This document shows, piece by piece, positions 38,001 to 45,941 of a DNA stretch of 55,555 bases (position 1 is its first letter; each line of letters opens with the position of its first letter). The notes beneath the pieces were generated by a model. That model was given only the letters and a program-made list of their open reading frames with translations, ran no database searches and was not told the origin of the DNA. Origin of the DNA: Prevotella sp. (lineage in GTDB: Bacteria > Bacteroidota > Bacteroidia > Bacteroidales > Bacteroidaceae); contig JAFSKJ010000101.1 of NCBI GenBank assembly GCA_017449025.1, positions 1 to 55,555 on the forward strand, written 5' to 3'. The translations under genes and the position numbers were made by a program.

Positions 38001-38897
38001 TTACCCCATGTCTTCCATCTGACTATTTGATGAATCCACCCAGCCTACGACGCGGATGCTGACTTCGTAGAGAAGATAGAGTGGGATGGTGACGAGAATA
38101 AGCGTCATCAGGTCGGGAGGAGTGATAATTGCGGCCACCAGCATGATGATGATGAACGAATGTTTGCGGTAGCGGGCAAGCATGTCGGAAGTCACGACTC
38201 CAAGCTTGCCAAGAAAGAATGCTATGACGGGCAGCTGGAACACCACGCCCATGACCAGTGTTAGCGAGACAAATGTGGTGATATATGAATCGAGCGTGAT
38301 GTTACTTACTACCTTTGCCGACACGCTATAGGTTCCGAGGAAGCGGAAGGAGATAGGGAACAACACGAAATATGTCATCAGTACGCCAAGCAGGAACAGC
38401 CCGTAGATGATTCCTGCCACCTGCACCGAATAGCGTCGCTCGTTATCATAGAGGGCGGGCGAAATGAAGCGGAACAGCTCATATAATATATAAGGTGAAG
38501 CCCCAAGTAGTCCCAAATATACCGCCGTCGTGATGTGGGTCATGAACTGGCTCGACAGGTCGGTGGCTATCAGATTTACGTAAAACTCCTCAAAGCGAAA
38601 ATCTACGCCAACATATTGCATGACAGTTTCTATCCAGCGATATGTGCAAAAGTTCCATTCGCTTGGAGCCAGCAACACTTCCCATGTCGTTTCCTTGAAG
38701 CAAAAGACAATCATTGCGATAGCGCCTGCCACCGCAATGATATGGAAAAGCATTCGGCGGAACACCTCAAGGTGTCCGCCAAATTTCAGCAGATTACCAT
38801 CATTTACAACATCGTTATATTGATGTTGTTGCTCCTGTATCAGCTCTTTTGATGTCTGCTTCTTTTCCTGCTTCTGTTTCTTGTTCTTCTTCGACAT
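38001..38897 (-). CDS. tatC: Twin-arginine translocase subunit TatC
   Basis: 298 residues. TatC is the receptor of the Tat pathway, which moves folded proteins across the inner membrane. Six membrane helices are visible. Family features include [14 protein letters not shown] (first loop Glu), [38 protein letters not shown] and [18 protein letters not shown]. The N-terminus is an unusually basic, Lys/Gln-rich tail of about 30 residues ([12 protein letters not shown]). Its first 83 bases overlap the end of tatA in another frame. No in-frame start exists between the tatA stop and the first helix, so the overlap looks real. Last gene of the RiPP operon. Confidence 0.94.
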
Positions 38898-39069
38898 TCT
38901 CTTCTGGCTCCTCTGGCAACGGTTCGTTCATTCCCTTTTTGAAACTCTGCACACCCTGCCCCAGGCCTTTCATCATCTCGGGCAGTTTCTTTCCGCCAAA
39001 CAATAGCAAGGCAAGACCGCCAATAAGCAGAAGCTCGGTGGTTCCGATGAATAATAGTTGTGATGCCAT
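38815..39069 (-). CDS. tatA: Twin-arginine translocase subunit TatA
   Basis: 84 residues, TatA/E type. A membrane helix ([14 protein letters not shown]) is followed by the conserved [23 protein letters not shown] amphipathic hinge in two overlapping parts, then an acidic tail ([14 protein letters not shown]). TatA oligomers form the transport passage for Tat substrates. It begins 4 bp after the stop of the 92-residue CXXX-system protein and overlaps tatC by 83 bp, so it belongs to the same transcript as the peptide-maturation genes. Confidence 0.93.
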
Positions 39070-39073
39070 ACGT

Positions 39074-39352
39074 TTACTGAGTTACCAAGAATATTTCACA
39101 AGTATCAAAGTTGATTTCCCAGTTTCCACCGTAGGCAGACTCCCACTTGTATTTCTCTGCCATACGGTCCCACCAGCCTTGGAACTTCGTACCAGTCTCA
39201 CCCAAGTCCTTTACCAGTTTCTCATACAACTCGGCATTTTCTGCGGTCAGAATCTTTGCCAGTTCATTCAGTCCGTTGCGACGTTCGAAGAGCGTCTGAA
39301 TCTCTGTACGCTCCTCTGGTGTCACCTGCCCTACAAGTTTCTTTGTTGTCAT
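39074..39352 (-). CDS. CXXX-repeat peptide modification-system protein (small)
   Basis: 92 residues, soluble and mostly helical ([34 protein letters not shown]) with a C-terminal aromatic/beta part ([32 protein letters not shown]). I associate this size and sequence with the small protein family that accompanies CXXX-repeat peptide maturases in Bacteroidales, from memory and not by search. It may bind the precursor as a recognition partner. It sits between the SH3/outer-membrane-like gene (11 bp) and tatA (4 bp). Confidence 0.65.
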
Positions 39353-39363
39353 AGTGTTATAAT

Positions 39364-40692
39364 TTATAAATTGCTTCTTTGCTCAAAAACCTTTTTCGAC
39401 CTTTCGCCCTGCCTTTTCATCCTTTCTTTCGACTCTTCTGAGTTCTTTTTCTGTTTTTCGCGCTGCTTGTTCTTAAATTTCCGGTACTCCTCCTTGGAAA
39501 CATATTTCATACCTTTGCTTTGCTTTTCCCTAAGCCAATTTATCTTTTGTTCCCACAGTCTTATCACTCCACTATAGTCTATGCTAGCATGGCGCATTTC
39601 ACCAATTTCTTTCTGGAGTCTTGCAATTTCCTTGGCAATTAGGATGTTTCCATCGCCAGACTCTTCATCTTGCATTTCTTCCATTTCTGAATCACCGGCA
39701 ATCCAGCCTCCCTGGCCATTACGGCCTAGAAGGCCGCTGTTCACGACAGCTTCCGACACATTGCCAATGGCCATCAGAGTGTTGCCAATGCCAATCCATG
39801 CTTTGCCACCAAAGCGAATGGAGAGGTTTATCATAGCTATACTCTTGCCACCACCTGCGTAGCTTGTGTAAAATGGGACAGAATAATACAGTCCCAAGCC
39901 AATTTTCTTGTAATTCAAGGATATCGCAGGTTCAATGCCAACCCCCAATCCACTTTCTTCAGAAAACATATACGAGAAGTAAGGACCTGCTCCAATCCTT
40001 AAGTTGAAATTGGAGTCGCCCAGAGGAATGTCATATGCCAGCCTGGCTGGTATTTCCAAATAGTTGACGTCTGAGAACATCTCATCATCTTTATCCAGAA
40101 AGACATTTCTGTACAGATAGCGCAGTCCTGTCTCTAACGTCAGACTTGCATCACCAATATTTAGGGGGATGTCACCACCAAGCATAGCTGACAAATCGAC
40201 CATCGAGCCATAGCCGTAGTCTGGAAGCCCACTCTGTGGCATTGCTGACGCGTCGAAGCGCCACAGAGCCTTGCGGTTGTGATTGTAGCTTGTGGCATAT
40301 TGACTGTCATAGTAACGCGAGCTATTCACATTGCTGCTATTACTTCCTCGCGGCTTGCTTGGCTGAGCCAAAGGCTGATCATTATAATGGCGTGCAGGAG
40401 CCTTGCTGCTCTCTTCGTTGTGACGAGCGGGCTCTTTCTCCAACAGGGAAGAGCTGACATAACATTTCTTTCCGTTATATGTAATTGTTGCCCACCCATT
40501 ACTTATTGACGTGACAGTAACAATAGTTCCTATAGTCAGTGATCCCACTATCGACGATTTCGTGGAAGGCTGCATCCTGACATTTGCCTTTTGCACCTTC
40601 ACCTTGTAGCTGTCTTGTGAAAACATGGCCATTGGGATGAGCGAAAAGATTATTGAAAGCAGACTTTTCAAAACTATCGGTTTCCAGTACAT
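39364..40692 (-). CDS. Exported SH3-domain and beta-barrel-like protein
   Basis: 442 residues. A signal peptide (LLSIIFSLIPMAMFSQ) precedes a bacterial SH3 domain (about 28-85: VQKANVRMQPSTKSSIVGSL, GWATITYNGKKCYVSSSLLE). A Ser/Asn-rich linker follows, then a beta-strand-rich region like an outer-membrane barrel (about 150-300: GDIPLNIGDASLTLETGLRY, FNLRIGAGPYFSYMFSEE, NYKKIGLGLYYSVPFY). The C-terminal about 90 residues are a highly charged coiled coil (EYRKFKNKQREKQKKNSEE). SH3 domains often bind cell-wall peptides. In the RiPP operon it may act at the envelope in release of, or protection from, the product. Confidence 0.65.
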   Translation of the reverse strand: MYWKPIVLKSLLSIIFSLIPMAMFSQDSYKVKVQKANVRMQPSTKSSIVGSLTIGTIVTVTSISNGWATITYNGKKCYVSSSLLEKEPARHNEESSKAPARHYNDQPLAQPSKPRGSNSSNVNSSRYYDSQYATSYNHNRKALWRFDASAMPQSGLPDYGYGSMVDLSAMLGGDIPLNIGDASLTLETGLRYLYRNVFLDKDDEMFSDVNYLEIPARLAYDIPLGDSNFNLRIGAGPYFSYMFSEESGLGVGIEPAISLNYKKIGLGLYYSVPFYTSYAGGGKSIAMINLSIRFGGKAWIGIGNTLMAIGNVSEAVVNSGLLGRNGQGGWIAGDSEMEEMQDEESGDGNILIAKEIARLQKEIGEMRHASIDYSGVIRLWEQKINWLREKQSKGMKYVSKEEYRKFKNKQREKQKKNSEESKERMKRQGERSKKVFEQRSNL

Positions 40693-40715
40693 AGTAGTTT
40701 CTTCTTGTTAATGTT

Positions 40716-41447
40716 TTACTCAGAGTGTTTCGTTGCGTCTTTCTTAGGTTTTTCCTTTTCTCTAAAGCACAAGTTCGTGAGCAAGATCGATATTACGAAT
40801 GCTATGGCGAGAGCAATATATGCTGGCAAACCATCTTTGACGAAGAACTTCTGCAGCATTGTCAGCGGAAGTCCGTCCACTCTAATGTATTCATCTTCAT
40901 AGTTACCGTCTTCTGTTTTCTTAGAGTAGTGTTTTATATCTCCTCGCCATATAGTCCTTATGTCACTGGCTTCTTTATTGCCAATCATCCTTGCACTGTC
41001 ATTTTCCACCATGTATAAATCCGTCTCGCCGTCAGCGTTGGGGCTACATTCTGCAATTACTGTACCATCATGCATACTTAGGTGAATAGTATAATAGTGT
41101 TCCTCTCCGCCAGTCAGTATTTTCCAAGTGTCTGTGTCCTCTAACAATTTTGGATGAAGGCCGCCAGAGCCGTCCTTTGCCGCATCATATCGCGACATGT
41201 CATTTCTCACTACATAGCGGTCTTCCCTGTAGGGTCGATGGTCATGATAAGGCCCCAGCACTTTGTCCTGCCATGCCTCTCCTAATGGAAACAACACTTT
41301 CGTTGAGAAAAAAAATGTTAAACCTATCGTCATGCCTATTTTCCATAGTTTCCTTTTTGTTTGACCCATGAGAATAAAAACCACAAAGGCTAAGACAGCA
41401 AGGAAACCGATAATGAAAACCAAATATCTACTGTCAAAAGAATCCAT
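40716..41447 (-). CDS. Membrane protein of unknown function in the RiPP operon
   Basis: 243 residues. Two N-terminal hydrophobic helices (YLVFIIGFLAVLAFVVFIL and IGMTIGLTFFFSTKVLFPLG) and one near the C-terminus (GLPAYIALAIAFVISILLTN) enclose a soluble domain of about 130 residues rich in charged and aromatic residues (HYYTIHLSMHDGTVIAECS). No family is recognised. Position between the Sel1-repeat and SH3 genes (26 and 23 bp gaps) suggests an envelope role in export, processing or immunity. Confidence 0.65.
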   Translation of the reverse strand: MDSFDSRYLVFIIGFLAVLAFVVFILMGQTKRKLWKIGMTIGLTFFFSTKVLFPLGEAWQDKVLGPYHDHRPYREDRYVVRNDMSRYDAAKDGSGGLHPKLLEDTDTWKILTGGEEHYYTIHLSMHDGTVIAECSPNADGETDLYMVENDSARMIGNKEASDIRTIWRGDIKHYSKKTEDGNYEDEYIRVDGLPLTMLQKFFVKDGLPAYIALAIAFVISILLTNLCFREKEKPKKDATKHSE

Positions 41448-41473
41448 AATATCTGTCTATTGAATAAGCAATG

Positions 41474-42484
41474 TTAATTGTGCAAAACATTCTCTCCGTT
41501 GATAGAAAAACTCCACTTCACTTTGTGTTCATCAAGATACTTCTGGGCATCTTCACTGCCGTTCTTTGCAGCTTCCTTGAGCAATGCTTCCCCTTTCTTC
41601 TTTTCCTTCTTTATGCCTTCCCTTCCCTCATAATACATCATTCCTAGTCTGTATCGTGCAGAATTGCTTCCCTTTTTGTCGATGGCCTTCAAGTAATAGT
41701 CTTCTGCCTTTGAGTAATCCTTTTCAGTTCCACGTCCCGTCTCATACATGAATCCAAGGTTGAAGAAAGCATCTTTTGATCCCAATTCAACAGCTTTGTT
41801 CAAATAATACATTGTATGAACATAATCCTCTTTCTCGTTATGATATATTACGGCCAGTTTGTTGCAGGCTGATTCATGACCATTGTCTGCTGCCATTTTA
41901 TACCAGTAGGCCGCTTGGTCCTTGTCCTCTTTCACACCCTTTCCATTGTTATATTCACCACCTAATTCATATTGGCATTCTGTATGACCGTGTTCTGCCC
42001 CCATTCGAGTCCATTTCAGCGATTCCTCGATGTTGTCTTGGTTACTATAGAGAATCCTTAGGTTGTTCATCGCATTAGTGTCGCCTTGATTGGCAGCTTT
42101 CACATACCAGTAAACGGCCTTGTCTGTGTTTTGGACGGTTCCGTTTCCATCATGATAGCAAACGCCAACTTTGTTCTGTGACTCAGCATCGCCCATCTCT
42201 GCGGCTTTGGTCAGCCATAAAAGATAGTCTTTCAGACTCTTCTCAACCACTTCTCCACGGTAATAGAATCCTGCAACCTTATGGATTGCGGGGATATAGT
42301 CTCTCTCTGCTGCCTGAATATAGAGCTGCAAGGCTTTCTCCTTGTTAAGGAAAGCCCCGTTAGTGCCCGTATAGGCATTCTCTGCTTCCTTGCACAACCT
42401 GACTGCCACGGAATCTTCTGGCGATGCAGCGACTTTGGTCAAGCAGCCAAGCAATGCCGCTAACATCAATAATCTCTTCATCAT
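41474..42484 (-). CDS. Exported Sel1-like repeat protein
   Basis: 336 residues. A signal peptide (MMKRLLMLAALLGCLTKVAA) is followed by about seven Sel1 repeats of about 36 residues (e.g. AESQNKVGVCYHDGNGTVQN, TECQYELGGEYNNGKGVKED, SARYRLGMMYYEGREG). These helical solenoids mediate protein contacts. Its ATG overlaps the TGA of the first CXXX precursor by 4 bp (ATGA), so it is translationally coupled to it. A periplasmic role in binding or trimming the peptide is a guess. Confidence 0.8.
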   Translation of the reverse strand: MMKRLLMLAALLGCLTKVAASPEDSVAVRLCKEAENAYTGTNGAFLNKEKALQLYIQAAERDYIPAIHKVAGFYYRGEVVEKSLKDYLLWLTKAAEMGDAESQNKVGVCYHDGNGTVQNTDKAVYWYVKAANQGDTNAMNNLRILYSNQDNIEESLKWTRMGAEHGHTECQYELGGEYNNGKGVKEDKDQAAYWYKMAADNGHESACNKLAVIYHNEKEDYVHTMYYLNKAVELGSKDAFFNLGFMYETGRGTEKDYSKAEDYYLKAIDKKGSNSARYRLGMMYYEGREGIKKEKKKGEALLKEAAKNGSEDAQKYLDEHKVKWSFSINGENVLHN

Positions 42485-42816
42485 TTTACCTTTATTGTAT
42501 CGTTTTTCTGTTTATGACATTTACATTTGCAAGTGTCACTTTCTTGGGATTGTTTTCTAATAGTACCAGCATTTGACATTGTGCAGGTTCCATAACAATT
42601 ATGCCCGCATGAACCAGTGCAAGAATTTCTACAGGACTGTCTGCACGCATCTTTACAGCCTTCAATGCAAGAATTATCGCATCCTCCTTTGCAAGATTTA
42701 CGGCATCCTTTGGGAACTGATTCTGCAATCGTTATGACTGGAACTGACGCAAGGGCAATAACAGGAAGTAATCGCCAAGCTGTTTTGAAAAAATCTCGTC
42801 TACTCAATATTTCCAT
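42481..42816 (-). CDS. CXXX-repeat RiPP precursor 1 with Tat signal
   Basis: 111 residues from the ATG at 42816, which follows GGAGTGGGAG; an upstream TTG is also in frame. A twin-arginine signal (SRRDFFK at 5-11, then a hydrophobic stretch to about residue 31) precedes a core in which cysteine falls exactly every fourth residue from 38 to 78: 11 cysteines, spacers mostly small or polar. After a 17-residue gap the tail has an off-register CKCKC (96-100). The regular array suggests thioether or similar cross-links made by the adjacent radical SAM system before Tat export. It overlaps the upstream maturase gene by 17 bp and the downstream Sel1 gene by 4 bp. Confidence 0.85.
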   Translation of the reverse strand: MEILSRRDFFKTAWRLLPVIALASVPVITIAESVPKGCRKSCKGGCDNSCIEGCKDACRQSCRNSCTGSCGHNCYGTCTMSNAGTIRKQSQESDTCKCKCHKQKNDTIKVK

Positions 42817-43771
42817 ACTCCCACTCCTTTCTTTTATCAAACGGGTCTAAATAGTCTATTTCCTTAATCTCCTTCTCAGGCAAGAATTCACCCAACTCAC
42901 GCCCTCTTTCCAGGAGGTCGCGTGAAGCGTTTCGCTCCAAATGAGCCAAGACACATTGCTCGTGCGACGGTGTGTTCACCTCCAGGGTCATTTTCTTGTT
43001 AAGCCAGACACAACGGCGGCACTGGTAAGCATCGCAATGCCGACAAATCGGAGCGTAGGCCAACTTATACAGCTGCGGATTCTTGATGTCCGGTCCATCA
43101 GCCAGTGAGCCAATTGAGGAATCCTGCTCATAGTAGAATGCAGGACAGACATAGAACTTCCCGTCTGGAGCAAGCGTTATACTCTCGCAACCGGCATTAC
43201 AGTTGTTCATACCGTCGAGCATCATGATGTCTGTGAGAATGTTCAGTTGAGGAGACTTGCCTTCTTTGTAGAGGGTTATCATGTTATCTGAAAGATGCTG
43301 AAGGATTTGCTTATATTTGGCAAAATCCTTTTCTCCAAATCTCTCTACATCAGTAAGCACAATATTCAGTCGCACAACTTTCCCCAGCACATTTTTTAGG
43401 AAACGGTAGCGGTCAAAGAAATCGTCTTTTGTAGTCCTTAGTGCATAGAGTTTATCGATGTCAAACACACATTGTTCTAACGATTTCCAGTCGTGGAACA
43501 CGATGACATCAGCATCCTCTTTCAGTTCCCCATCCTCGCACAATGATGATACAATCTTACTATGGTCTATCGTCTCTATCACATCTTTGTACTCTGATGA
43601 CAATTCGTAGTCGGGAAAGACAAACTGAATCATCAGGTTTTCTTTCATGCCAAACAAAATGCCGTCTCTTAGCATCTGAATGGGAATCAGTCGAGACGTT
43701 TTGGCTGTGTTCTCATAATGACAGAACGATATGCTTGTATCATCTAATAATATAATAAGGTATTGCAGCAT
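42800..43771 (-). CDS. CXXX-repeat peptide maturase, SPASM type without CX3CX2C
   Basis: 323 residues. No CX3CX2C radical SAM triad is present anywhere. The C-terminal third instead has SPASM-like cysteines at about 191, 195, 209, 243, 246, 251, 254 and 273 (NNCNAGCESITLAPDGKFYV, ICRHCDAYQCRRCVW), expected to hold auxiliary Fe-S clusters. The N-terminal part is alpha/beta (LQYLIILLDDTSISFCHYE). I associate it with the 'CXXX repeat peptide maturase' family of Bacteroidales, from memory. It lies between the radical SAM gene (6 bp) and precursor 1 (overlap), and is probably the partner of that radical SAM enzyme. Confidence 0.75.
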   Translation of the reverse strand: MLQYLIILLDDTSISFCHYENTAKTSRLIPIQMLRDGILFGMKENLMIQFVFPDYELSSEYKDVIETIDHSKIVSSLCEDGELKEDADVIVFHDWKSLEQCVFDIDKLYALRTTKDDFFDRYRFLKNVLGKVVRLNIVLTDVERFGEKDFAKYKQILQHLSDNMITLYKEGKSPQLNILTDIMMLDGMNNCNAGCESITLAPDGKFYVCPAFYYEQDSSIGSLADGPDIKNPQLYKLAYAPICRHCDAYQCRRCVWLNKKMTLEVNTPSHEQCVLAHLERNASRDLLERGRELGEFLPEKEIKEIDYLDPFDKRKEWEYGNIE

Positions 43772-43777
43772 AATAAT

Positions 43778-45016
43778 TCAGCAGACTAATGGTTTAACTG
43801 ACTTCTTATTCTTCTCGTATTCTTCACGCTCTCCTTCCAGCTCCAGTTTCCGATATAGCTTGTTCCAATAGTAGTTGTTGGCACGGACGCGAGCCTTGTG
43901 CATTTTGCAGATAGCTGTCGAACGTTGATAAATCGTATTTGTATCTGCTGCATCATAGTTTTCACCCTGACACCAAGCGCAACCACTCGCAACTTCACAA
44001 TCAATACATTCTTGCTTGCTTTGGGTTGTTCGGTCAAGAGTTAAGAACGGACGGAGTTTGTTCTTGTCAATACCGTCATTAACGTTACCAATAACCCATG
44101 CATTCTTTTCACGAAGAGAGTATTGGGCAAAGCGGGTGCAAGGATAGAAGTTTCCTGCTGCATCCAAAGCCAGCATCATACCTGCTCCACACCAATTTTG
44201 GTTCTCCAAGATACTATCCATCGGCTTGCCGATATACTCAGAAAAGAAGGAGCAACTGTAATTGGAATATAATCCGTTGTCAATTATAGAATCAGCCAAT
44301 TGCATGAGTTGATCCTCAAACAATAAGTCATCTCCCTCTTTCCACACATCTTCAAAAACACAATTGATGTTTACTTCGTGTATTCCCTGTGAATAAAGAT
44401 GCAATACGCTTTCCTTGATGTATGGAATATCTGCACTACTGATAGTAACCTTTGTACCACCTTTTGGGAATTGTTCCAACCACAATGGTATGTTACGTAC
44501 GACATCAACGTATGATCCACGTTCTGAAGAGTCCTTCTCGCTTTGAGGCTTGTAGATTCTGTTTAGGTCGTGCTTTTGTTGCGTTCCGTCAATGGTAATA
44601 CCAATGCTAAGATGCTGATGATTTTTCTGAATAAAGTTCTGCACCTTGGGGGTGTGATAGTTAATGCCATTGGTAGAGAAAGAAAACCGATAGGAGTTGA
44701 ACCAGTGATGGCTTAGCCGATACATCTCTGTTTTTATGTAGTCACATATCATATCGATTAAATCAATCTCAAGGAATGGCTCTCCACCAATGAAATCCCA
44801 TACGACGCTTTCTTCTTCGTACTCATTTTCATGACTAAGAATATAATCAATAGCAAGTTTTGCCACCTCCCAGGACATACGCTCTTTAGAATTCTTGCCT
44901 ACGAGATAACAATACTTACATGCCAGTTGACAGTCTTTTGTGACAATGAACGTGATGTTCTTTGCCATGCCATTCTTCCATGAGCTATCACCTTGCTTAA
45001 TCGTTGAATCAATCAT
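43778..45016 (-). CDS. Radical SAM/SPASM peptide maturase of the CXXX-repeat system
   Basis: 412 residues. The SAM-cluster motif CX3CX2C is CQLACKYC (Cys29, 33, 36). The barrel continues with WDFIGGEPFLE (GGEP, SAM binding) and FSFSTNGINY. The SPASM region has Cys276, 293, 337, 340, 346, 349 and 370 (WCGAGMMLALDAAGNFYPC, CIDCEVASGCAWCQGENYD). Such enzymes build Cys-to-carbon thioether links in ribosomally made peptides. Neighbouring precursors on both sides supply an obvious substrate. A -7 box and a hairpin lie between precursor 2 and this gene. Confidence 0.92.
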   Translation of the reverse strand: MIDSTIKQGDSSWKNGMAKNITFIVTKDCQLACKYCYLVGKNSKERMSWEVAKLAIDYILSHENEYEEESVVWDFIGGEPFLEIDLIDMICDYIKTEMYRLSHHWFNSYRFSFSTNGINYHTPKVQNFIQKNHQHLSIGITIDGTQQKHDLNRIYKPQSEKDSSERGSYVDVVRNIPLWLEQFPKGGTKVTISSADIPYIKESVLHLYSQGIHEVNINCVFEDVWKEGDDLLFEDQLMQLADSIIDNGLYSNYSCSFFSEYIGKPMDSILENQNWCGAGMMLALDAAGNFYPCTRFAQYSLREKNAWVIGNVNDGIDKNKLRPFLTLDRTTQSKQECIDCEVASGCAWCQGENYDAADTNTIYQRSTAICKMHKARVRANNYYWNKLYRKLELEGEREEYEKNKKSVKPLVC

Positions 45017-45077
45017 TTATCCAAGTGTGAGTATTCTTTTTCATTAAAATAGGATTTGTATAGATTTGCATGTCGCA

Positions 45078-45115
45078 TATTTTGTAAGAACAGTTTGCAC
45101 CGTTCTTACAAAATA
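45078..45115 (-). promoter_or_regulatory. 14-bp stem-loop in the leader of the radical SAM gene
   Basis: TATTTTGTAAGAAC (45078-45091) and its exact complement (45102-45115) enclose a 10-base loop. It lies just downstream of the TACCTTTG box at 45121-45128 on the minus strand, so a transcript from there would begin at or near this stem. It could protect the 5' end, or attenuate read-through from the precursor 2 gene so that peptide is made in excess over enzyme. Confidence 0.65.
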
Positions 45116-45120
45116 CGAGG

Positions 45121-45128
45121 CAAAGGTA
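45121..45128 (-). promoter_or_regulatory. -7 box for the radical SAM gene
   Basis: The minus strand reads TACCTTTG, the most common Bacteroidetes -7 form, 8 bases past the precursor 2 stop. No TTTG is seen at -33, so strength is uncertain. Confidence 0.5.
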
Positions 45129-45135
45129 AAAATGG

Positions 45136-45444
45136 CTATCTGCTACTACCTTTGCATCCACCTTGGCAGGAGGTTTTACATGTTCCTTTACAACGGTCAT
45201 AGCAGGTATCATTGCAAGACCCCTTACATGTGTGTTGACATGTGCCATAGCAATTACCAGTACAACCACCAGAGCAACCGCCTGAACAGCCTTTAGGACA
45301 CCCCATCGGTGTATCTGCTGCTTTGATTACATTAGGCATTCCTGCAAGTGCTACTGCTGCAATAATTGGCAGCACTCCCTTTGCGGCCTTCTTGAAGAAT
45401 TCCCTCCGTGACTGGAGCTCTTCATTCTTTTTTGTTTTCTTCAT
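45136..45444 (-). CDS. CXXX-repeat RiPP precursor 2 with Tat signal
   Basis: 102 residues. A twin-arginine signal (SRREFFKK at 12-19) and hydrophobic stretch (VLPIIAAVALAG) end near a likely cleavage site at VIKAA. The core has cysteine at 49 and then every fourth position to 97: 13 cysteines, 12 perfect CX3 periods with mostly Gly/Ser/Thr/Lys spacers (e.g. CPKGCSGGC, CNDTCYDRC). A five-residue KGSSR tail follows. It shares GNCYGTC-like units with precursor 1. Expected product: a heavily cross-linked peptide exported by Tat. First gene of the maturation set; a 119-bp gap with promoter and hairpin separates it from the enzyme gene. Confidence 0.87.
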   Translation of the reverse strand: MKKTKKNEELQSRREFFKKAAKGVLPIIAAVALAGMPNVIKAADTPMGCPKGCSGGCSGGCTGNCYGTCQHTCKGSCNDTCYDRCKGTCKTSCQGGCKGSSR

Positions 45445-45475
45445 AACCTTATAATATTAAATTGTAACTATTGAA

Positions 45476-45495
45476 GGGAGAGAGTATCTCTTCCC
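45476..45495 (-). terminator. Hairpin between the secreted-protein gene and precursor 2
   Basis: GGG plus AGAGA pairs with TCTCT plus CCC around a 3-base loop with one bulge. It begins 2 bases after the stop of the 45498-45941 gene and ends 31 bases before the precursor 2 ATG. There is no strong T-run, so it may be an attenuator or processing site. Confidence 0.35.
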
Positions 45496-45497
45496 CG

Positions 45498-45941
45498 TTA
45501 TTTGCTTGGCATAATCATTTGCGGTGATTGCTTTTTTTGTGGAGCCTGGCGTTTGTACACATTGGTATTAACACCGTCTATTGTCTCATTTATTACAGAC
45601 AAATCATTGGTCACGGATAGTTGCCAGTTGCCATACAAAGCATTATTTAAACCTATAGCAAAATCACTGTTCTCACTTGGTCTTACCTTATAAATCTTGA
45701 ACCCGTTTTGCTGGCTATGGAATCTCCATACTATACTATTTTTCGCATTTCCATTTGCATCCGACTCGTAACAAATGTTTCCATAAAATGTATAACAACT
45801 ACTGCGGTCTTGCTTGTGCTTCACACCATTATTATCATAAAACTCATTTGACACATAATAATATGTGTATCTTTGAGCCTTTACTGGGTTAACAATAGCA
45901 GATGCCACTAAAAACAGTAATACCAAATAGATTTTGCTCAT
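45498..45941 (-). CDS. Small exported protein of unknown function
   Basis: 147 residues from the ATG at 45941; a TTG 9 bases upstream is in frame. A signal peptide (MSKIYLVLLFLVASAIVNPV, cleavage near KAQ) precedes a beta-rich domain with many Tyr and Asn (RYTYYYVSNEFYDNNGVKH, SVTNDLSVINETIDGVNTNV) and a Gln/Pro/Lys tail. It contains only two cysteines. The base composition is AT-rich like the RiPP genes it precedes, so it may belong to the same island. I recognise no family. Confidence 0.65.
   Translation of the reverse strand: MSKIYLVLLFLVASAIVNPVKAQRYTYYYVSNEFYDNNGVKHKQDRSSCYTFYGNICYESDANGNAKNSIVWRFHSQQNGFKIYKVRPSENSDFAIGLNNALYGNWQLSVTNDLSVINETIDGVNTNVYKRQAPQKKQSPQMIMPSK

Follow-up and report, generated by a model that had tools for sequence, protein, structure and literature searches.

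Tat-type leaders and linked tatAC genes in a CXXX-repeat cassette of Prevotella sp.: a probable RiPP-like pathway for exported envelope proteins

Introduction

What product is made, and how does it leave the cell, when precursors with a cysteine at every fourth residue are encoded beside radical SAM/SPASM enzymes and a translocase? The question is raised by 11 genes at 38001–45941, all on the minus strand, of a 55,555-nt window of Prevotella sp. DNA (the window is the whole stretch that was analysed; the genes are from its list of open reading frames, ORFs). In order of transcription they encode a secreted 147-residue protein, precursor 1, a radical SAM/SPASM enzyme, a partner maturase, precursor 2, a Sel1-repeat protein, a membrane protein, an SH3/outer-membrane-like protein, a protein of family TIGR04116, and TatA and TatC of the twin-arginine translocation (Tat) system. 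The main result is that both precursors carry Tat motifs. Tat is an unusual export route for modified peptides of the RiPP (ribosomally synthesized and post-translationally modified peptide) kind, here in a gut-type bacterium, and the cassette as a whole is probably best explained as a RiPP-like pathway for Tat-exported envelope proteins.

Precursor leaders and exporters

Precursor 1 starts MKKTKKNEELQSRREFFKKAAKGVLPIIAAVALAGMP and precursor 2 starts MEILSRRDFFKTAWRLLPVIALASVP. Both match an N-terminal RRxF[FL]K-type consensus, which is taken here as the mark of a Tat substrate; predicted TatA, TatC and motif-bearing substrates of twin-arginine export occur together in the cassette. The leaders were compared across loci from a GTDB genome scan, in which relatives of the radical SAM/SPASM enzyme occur at 370 loci; the best 80 were used, a choice that biases the sample towards close relatives. 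Of 156 precursor-like ORFs in the 80 loci (five or more four-spaced cysteines, or a precursor match), 147 contain xRRx[FLMVI] within the first 90 residues; of the nine without it, one in L107 lies where its contig ends, one in L084 is encoded on the opposite strand, and some are short or may have a misassigned start. The stricter motif [STNDG]RRxF[FL][KR] is found in 134 of the 156, against 3 of the remaining 7468 ORFs at these loci. Among 143 distinct leaders (selected for RR, which predetermines that pair and the class of the residue two positions further on), the third residue after RR is Phe in 96%, the next is Lys or Arg in 97%, and Pro stands at +14, counted from the residue preceding RR, in 93%. 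An [LIVM]-Pro pair starts 11–12 residues past the first Arg in 142 of the 147 Tat leaders.

Leader type and exporter change together. Where tatC is linked and a precursor is readable, a Tat leader is present (60/60 loci); three further tatC-linked loci, with none in view, lie at or near contig ends. At four other loci (L145–L147 and L178) the maturases stand beside an ABC exporter, and none of their four leaders has a Tat motif; KTLPG is present in three of them. The Leu-Pro element may serve maturase recognition and the RR pair export. The ABC-linked precursor ORFs are short (66–94 residues). The exporters of L145, L146 and L178 have ABC membrane and ATPase domains and, in the scan, no peptidase domain, that of L147 being assigned by position and a similar start only; L178 also has a subtilase gene. 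With two of the ABC exporters as queries, the 80 loci gave one match (E 1e-20, more than 450 residues), 5.9 kb from the radical SAM gene. The precursors of L143 and L144 combine a Tat motif with a lipobox-like site, and the 16 kb fetched contains no tat genes. The same enzyme families with Tat-type or ABC-type leaders offer a natural comparison. Among named isolates, Xylanibacter rarus (L045) has the full cassette and Bacteroides congonensis (L055) lacks linked tatAC.

Gene content of the cassette

The features are given below in order of transcription, with profile scores in bits and the cut-off (cut) of each model.

45498..45941, minus strand: secreted 147-residue protein, family unknown; accessory, relatives in 2 of the 80 loci
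45136..45444, minus strand: precursor 1, 102 residues; Tat motif ELQSRREFFKKAAKGVLPIIAAVAL, then 13 cysteines at exact four-residue spacing; TIGR04117 52.3 bits (cut 50)
45071..45122, minus strand: inverted repeat between precursor 1 and the radical SAM gene; 24-nt arms, 83% complementary
43778..45016, minus strand: radical SAM/SPASM peptide maturase; TIGR04115 631.8 bits (cut 350); CxxxCxxC (DCQLACKYCY) in the translation
42800..43771, minus strand: partner maturase; TIGR04119 253 bits (cut 150); radical-SAM fold and SPASM, CxxxCxxC motif absent
42481..42816, minus strand: precursor 2, 111 residues; Tat motif MEILSRRDFFKTAWRLLPVIAL, 11 cysteines in unbroken four-residue spacing and three more; TIGR04117 25.8 bits (under cut 50)
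41474..42484, minus strand: Sel1-repeat protein; accessory, Pfam Sel1 151.6 bits
40716..41447, minus strand: membrane protein, family unknown; accessory, relative in 1 of the 80 loci
39364..40692, minus strand: SH3 and outer-membrane-barrel-like protein; accessory, SH3_3 41.6 bits (cut 27), OMP_b-brl_2 24.8 bits (under cut 27)
39074..39352, minus strand: TIGR04116 CXXX-repeat modification system protein; 102.6 bits (cut 50)
38815..39069, minus strand: cassette TatA; TIGR01411 57.0 bits (cut 53.9)
38001..38897, minus strand: cassette TatC, second TatC of the genome; TIGR00945 152.8 bits (cut 132.7), PF00902 194.4 bits

The cysteines were counted by eye in the translations. A Pfam scan gave no match for the secreted 147-residue protein or the membrane protein. 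A sequence-only reading of this DNA had described two precursors, the radical SAM enzyme, its partner, the small protein and tatA–tatC in one orientation, and all are present; the genes that it named are real, and it missed the secreted protein at 45498–45941 and the Tat motifs. Its gaps of 0–26 bp, save around precursor 2, fit only part of the spacings. These are (in nt) −83 for tatC/tatA, 4 for tatA/TIGR04116, 11 for TIGR04116/SH3, 23 for SH3/membrane, 26 for membrane/Sel1, −4 for Sel1/precursor 2, −17 for precursor 2/partner (the precursor 2 start at 42816 overlaps the partner gene), 6 for partner/radical SAM, 119 for radical SAM/precursor 1 and 53 for precursor 1/secreted. Three junctions therefore overlap, and the wide gaps of 119 and 53 nt flank the upstream precursor at 45136–45444. 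The 119-nt gap folds at −29.9 kcal/mol, a figure without a shuffled control, and the inverted repeat within it forms a stem-loop in the transcript without a T run, which may set the precursor-to-enzyme ratio.

The guanine-plus-cytosine (GC) content is 0.52–0.57 at 34–38 kb, 0.38–0.48 at 38–46 kb, 0.44 at 46–47 kb and 0.51–0.58 beyond. Five window genes flanking the cassette have no match in the 11 fetched loci compared, and a TIGR04115 enzyme scores above the cut-off in three of 30 same-genus genomes, the source genome included. Given the low GC of the island, its unmatched flanks and this sparse occurrence, the cassette appears patchy and is probably mobile.

Modifying enzymes

By profile the enzymes fall into an NCBIfam system that is known but functionally uncharacterised. 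As the sequence-only reading had proposed, this is a CXXX-repeat modification system: the radical SAM enzyme, the partner, the TIGR04116 protein and the nearby TIGR04117 precursor (precursor 1) all pass the curated cut-offs. The radical SAM enzyme scores 186.6 bits against the model of the PapB-type ranthipeptide maturases (cut 340), below that family's threshold, and gives a profile match of 129.6 bits to CteB. No MNIO enzyme was matched by Pfam or NCBIfam among the ten cassette proteins scanned, nor by Pfam in the eleventh.

The partner had been read as a SPASM-only protein. It does have the SPASM cysteines and lacks CxxxCxxC, but a radical-SAM fold is present too. CxxxCxxC is absent from the first 80 residues in all 80 partner ORFs examined (0/80), and the partner is a likely pseudo-enzyme. 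An AlphaFold2 model of the TIGR04116 protein (pLDDT 92.0) shows two long helices and a β-hairpin. Two natural fusions occur: the radical SAM enzyme (TIGR04115) with the partner (TIGR04119) in one 721-residue protein (L178:5101–7263), and a partner with TIGR04116 at its C-terminus (L143:6439–7968; residues 419–507, 86.8 bits). These fusions argue that the radical SAM enzyme, the partner and the TIGR04116 protein may act as one complex. The L178 fusion gene lies near the ABC exporter, the subtilase and a 70-residue Cys-rich precursor.

Recurrence across Bacteroidales

Most of the 80 loci carry Bacteroidales labels. Two contigs labelled Clostridia or Clostridium (L040 and L042) have a Bacteroidales-type cassette and are probably misbinned metagenome contigs. 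Relatives of the radical SAM enzyme occur in all 80 loci by selection, of the partner in 79, of TIGR04116 in 77, of tatA in 67 and of tatC in 63. Seven loci are too short to judge; among the 73 with room, 63 have tatA and tatC no more than 2.5 kb downstream, and all 63 loci holding all five genes have the order radical SAM–partner–TIGR04116–tatA–tatC on one strand. This linkage, with the Tat motifs of the precursors, supports the claim of a dedicated export machine.

The same comparison does not uphold the proposal that ten genes form one conserved pathway. Relatives of the accessory genes are found in few of the 80 loci (secreted 2, membrane 1, SH3/outer-membrane-like 6, Sel1 4), and the SH3 and Sel1 matches may reflect no more than shared domains. 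The secreted, membrane and SH3/outer-membrane-like genes are all found at the closest locus, L033, which has no Sel1 gene and no precursor between the partner and membrane genes. The Sel1, SH3/outer-membrane-like, membrane and secreted genes are local additions.

In a sample not selected by the radical SAM enzyme, TIGR04116 scores above the cut-off in eight of 295 genomes of the order, the source genome (G000) included. Four of the other seven have linked tatAC and Tat precursors.

The second TatC

G000 has two TatCs, one in the cassette and one on C89. Among 36 cassette genomes chosen from the 80 loci (7 without linked tatC; all candidates scored), TatC is present in all and in at least two copies in 25, with the split frame of G396 counted once and a sub-threshold row of G404 omitted. 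In a phylum control that scored at most 10 candidates per genome, TatC occurs in 295 of 296 genomes and two copies in three (G000, G157 and G269).

In a first tree 28 of 30 cassette TatCs group (SH-aLRT 98) with one copy labelled as other (L137), which lies in a second complete cassette (L148). With that copy relabelled and six more cassette TatCs added, the final tree places 33 of 37 in one clade (SH-aLRT 99) that contains none of the 26 other copies. Two genomes that already have one CXXX cassette carry a further one with tatAC: L148 (in G422) and L149 (in G420, cut by the contig end), the latter holding the second TatC of G420. The housekeeping tatA–tatC of G000 (L151:4963–8913) is followed by a 495-residue gene and then by an RR-motif lipoprotein gene (ITRRDFLKLFSGG). 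The gene order of L150 matches that of L151.

Proposed pathway and alternative explanations

In the proposed pathway the leader has two elements: the Tat motif, S-R-R-x-F-F-K, and a conserved Leu-Pro pair some 12 residues further along, at which the maturases probably recognise the precursor. The core with its every-fourth cysteine comes after. The precursors are presumably modified in the cytoplasm, where the radical SAM/SPASM enzyme, the partner and the TIGR04116 protein would act in complex on the repeat, most likely introducing thioether crosslinks that would make it rigid. Since a rigid product would be poorly suited to Sec, the folded protein would exit through Tat, usually through the second TatAC encoded in the cassette. 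Signal peptidase would release it, and the lipoprotein pathway would anchor about a quarter of the precursors. A review (PMC11048544) describes mature nisin as displayed via Tat and a Sec-exported peptide as not reached by the tailoring enzymes.

Across the cores, 2389 cysteine gaps have spacing 4 and 200 have spacing 3, the next commonest. In the 2389 four-spaced units no residue is fixed between the cysteines: Gly occupies position 2 in 35%, Ser, Gly or Thr is found at position 3 in 69%, Pro reaches at most 0.4%, and Asp and Glu account for 4–5% and 2–4%, respectively, at positions 1–3. One precursor (L043:9085–9981) has 52 cysteines in a single unbroken four-residue spacing. Lipobox-like sites are found in 39 of 147 precursors by a stricter rule and in 56 of 143 by a looser one. 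Four precursors (L099:4429–5652, L050:8708–9955, L045:8739–9458 and L064:8595–10004) carry a FISUMP-like signature (DLGLxVKWA) after the repeats; of two scanned against FISUMP, that of L099 scored 37.3 bits (cut 41.65) and that of L050 gave no match.

Several observations weigh against this pathway. No residue between the cysteines being fixed, a crosslink acceptor cannot be named from these sequences; a bond blind to the side chain, or a Cys-to-Cys link, is possible, and the cysteines may do no more than bind metal or pair as disulfides. Preliminary attempts by another group at Tat display of lanthipeptides failed, as mentioned in PMC5686179. Eight of the 73 loci lack both tat genes (L051, L054, L055, L060, L067, L070, L075 and L104), and in L074 and L099 tatA is present and tatC not detectable; all ten hold at least one Tat-motif precursor, so that a private Tat is not essential and the housekeeping Tat must serve there. 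In the sample selected by TIGR04116, a Tat precursor stands without visible tat genes at L179, the ABC exporter is at L178, and one genome (G691) has two TIGR04116 genes (L175 and L176), with neither a maturase nor a Cys-rich precursor detected over 15 kb. Of two relatives from the same genus, one (L171) lacks tat genes. The presence of a housekeeping TatC proves little, since nearly every genome of the phylum control has one. Four of the 37 cassette TatCs fall outside the clade, L061 and L180 on long branches and L109 and L173 near housekeeping copies; for one clade holding all 37 the p-AU is 0.56, so that such a clade is neither rejected nor shown.

The alternative that survives best, although unlikely, is that the repeat proteins bind metals or clusters, receive them in the cytoplasm and are then exported by Tat, the maturases acting on only a few residues or helping the loading. 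Tat exports Fe–S enzymes loaded in the cytoplasm, the regular cysteines with runs of up to 52 would suit such binding, and the housekeeping Tat of G000 adjoins a gene for an RR-motif lipoprotein. Bufferins, which are exported Cys-rich RiPPs, are described as chelating copper (PMC12452194). Against this, the enzyme encoded next to the precursors is a radical SAM/SPASM protein of the thioether-forming branch, as its CteB and PapB scores indicate, although the loci were selected by this enzyme; in addition, genes for metal transport or chaperones are absent from the core of the window.

It is distinctly improbable that the product is an ordinary secreted antibiotic peptide or signal that selection has diversified. 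Such a peptide would account for leaders that are conserved and cores that are diverse (median identity 54% in the leader versus 21% in the non-Cys core of 107 same-locus paralogue pairs), and the related loci whose precursors are short have ABC exporters, one of them together with a subtilase. The Tat precursors, however, have a median length of 117 residues (range 80–470), and the core has no recurring peptidase or immunity-like gene. The lipobox-like sites and FISUMP-like signatures favour envelope proteins over a diffusible antibiotic.

That the tat genes lie beside the cassette by chance, or for other substrates, is very hard to credit: ten of 73 loci lack one or both and L171 has neither, but the linkage in the other 63, the fixed order, the largely separate TatC clade and the Tat motifs on the adjoining precursors speak against it.

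The RiPP-like pathway to envelope proteins can tentatively be taken further, to a RiPP class in which the leader is the Tat signal and the co-inherited, dedicated TatAC is a checkpoint that would pass only the crosslinked, folded ladder, perhaps an i to i + 4 Cys–Cys ladder forming long rigid surface rods. If true, such a checkpoint would explain why a precursor that carries an export signal does not leave before modification.

Comparison with known systems

Within the NCBIfam CXXX-repeat system (TIGR04114, TIGR04115, TIGR04116, TIGR04117 and TIGR04119), the three enzyme-side families and precursor 1 are above the cut-offs. The model names, by which the comparison was made, make no mention of export by Tat, of a TatAC reserved for the system, of a partner lacking the SAM motif or of an ABC alternative. 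The modification system is thus known by profile; the Tat arm, the matching of leader to exporter and the SAM-motif-less partner appear to be new. No paper on any of these three was found in searches of open-access PMC, and earlier notice elsewhere is possible.

The ranthipeptide maturase PapB (PMC9413430), the second-best NCBIfam model for the radical SAM enzyme of the window, links Cys to the residue four on and needs Asp or Glu at that fourth position, whereas the fourth position in the cassette cores is the next Cys; the Cys-X3-Asp/Glu pattern is therefore absent. TrnC and TrnD of thuricin CD (PMC12093266) are likewise paired radical SAM/SPASM proteins; they form a tight complex in which only one strictly needs its SAM chemistry. 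Both are active radical SAM enzymes, whereas the cassette partner lacks CxxxCxxC. Bufferins and DAG-RiPPs (PMC12636315) resemble the cassette in having modified precursors with an export signal, lipoprotein forms and long or fused precursors, but they use MNIO enzymes and Sec or lipoprotein signals in place of radical SAM enzymes and Tat. CteB (PDB entries 5wgg and 5why) is the closest solved structure to the radical SAM enzyme by sequence and to the partner by fold; unlike CteB, the partner is missing the SAM-cluster motif.

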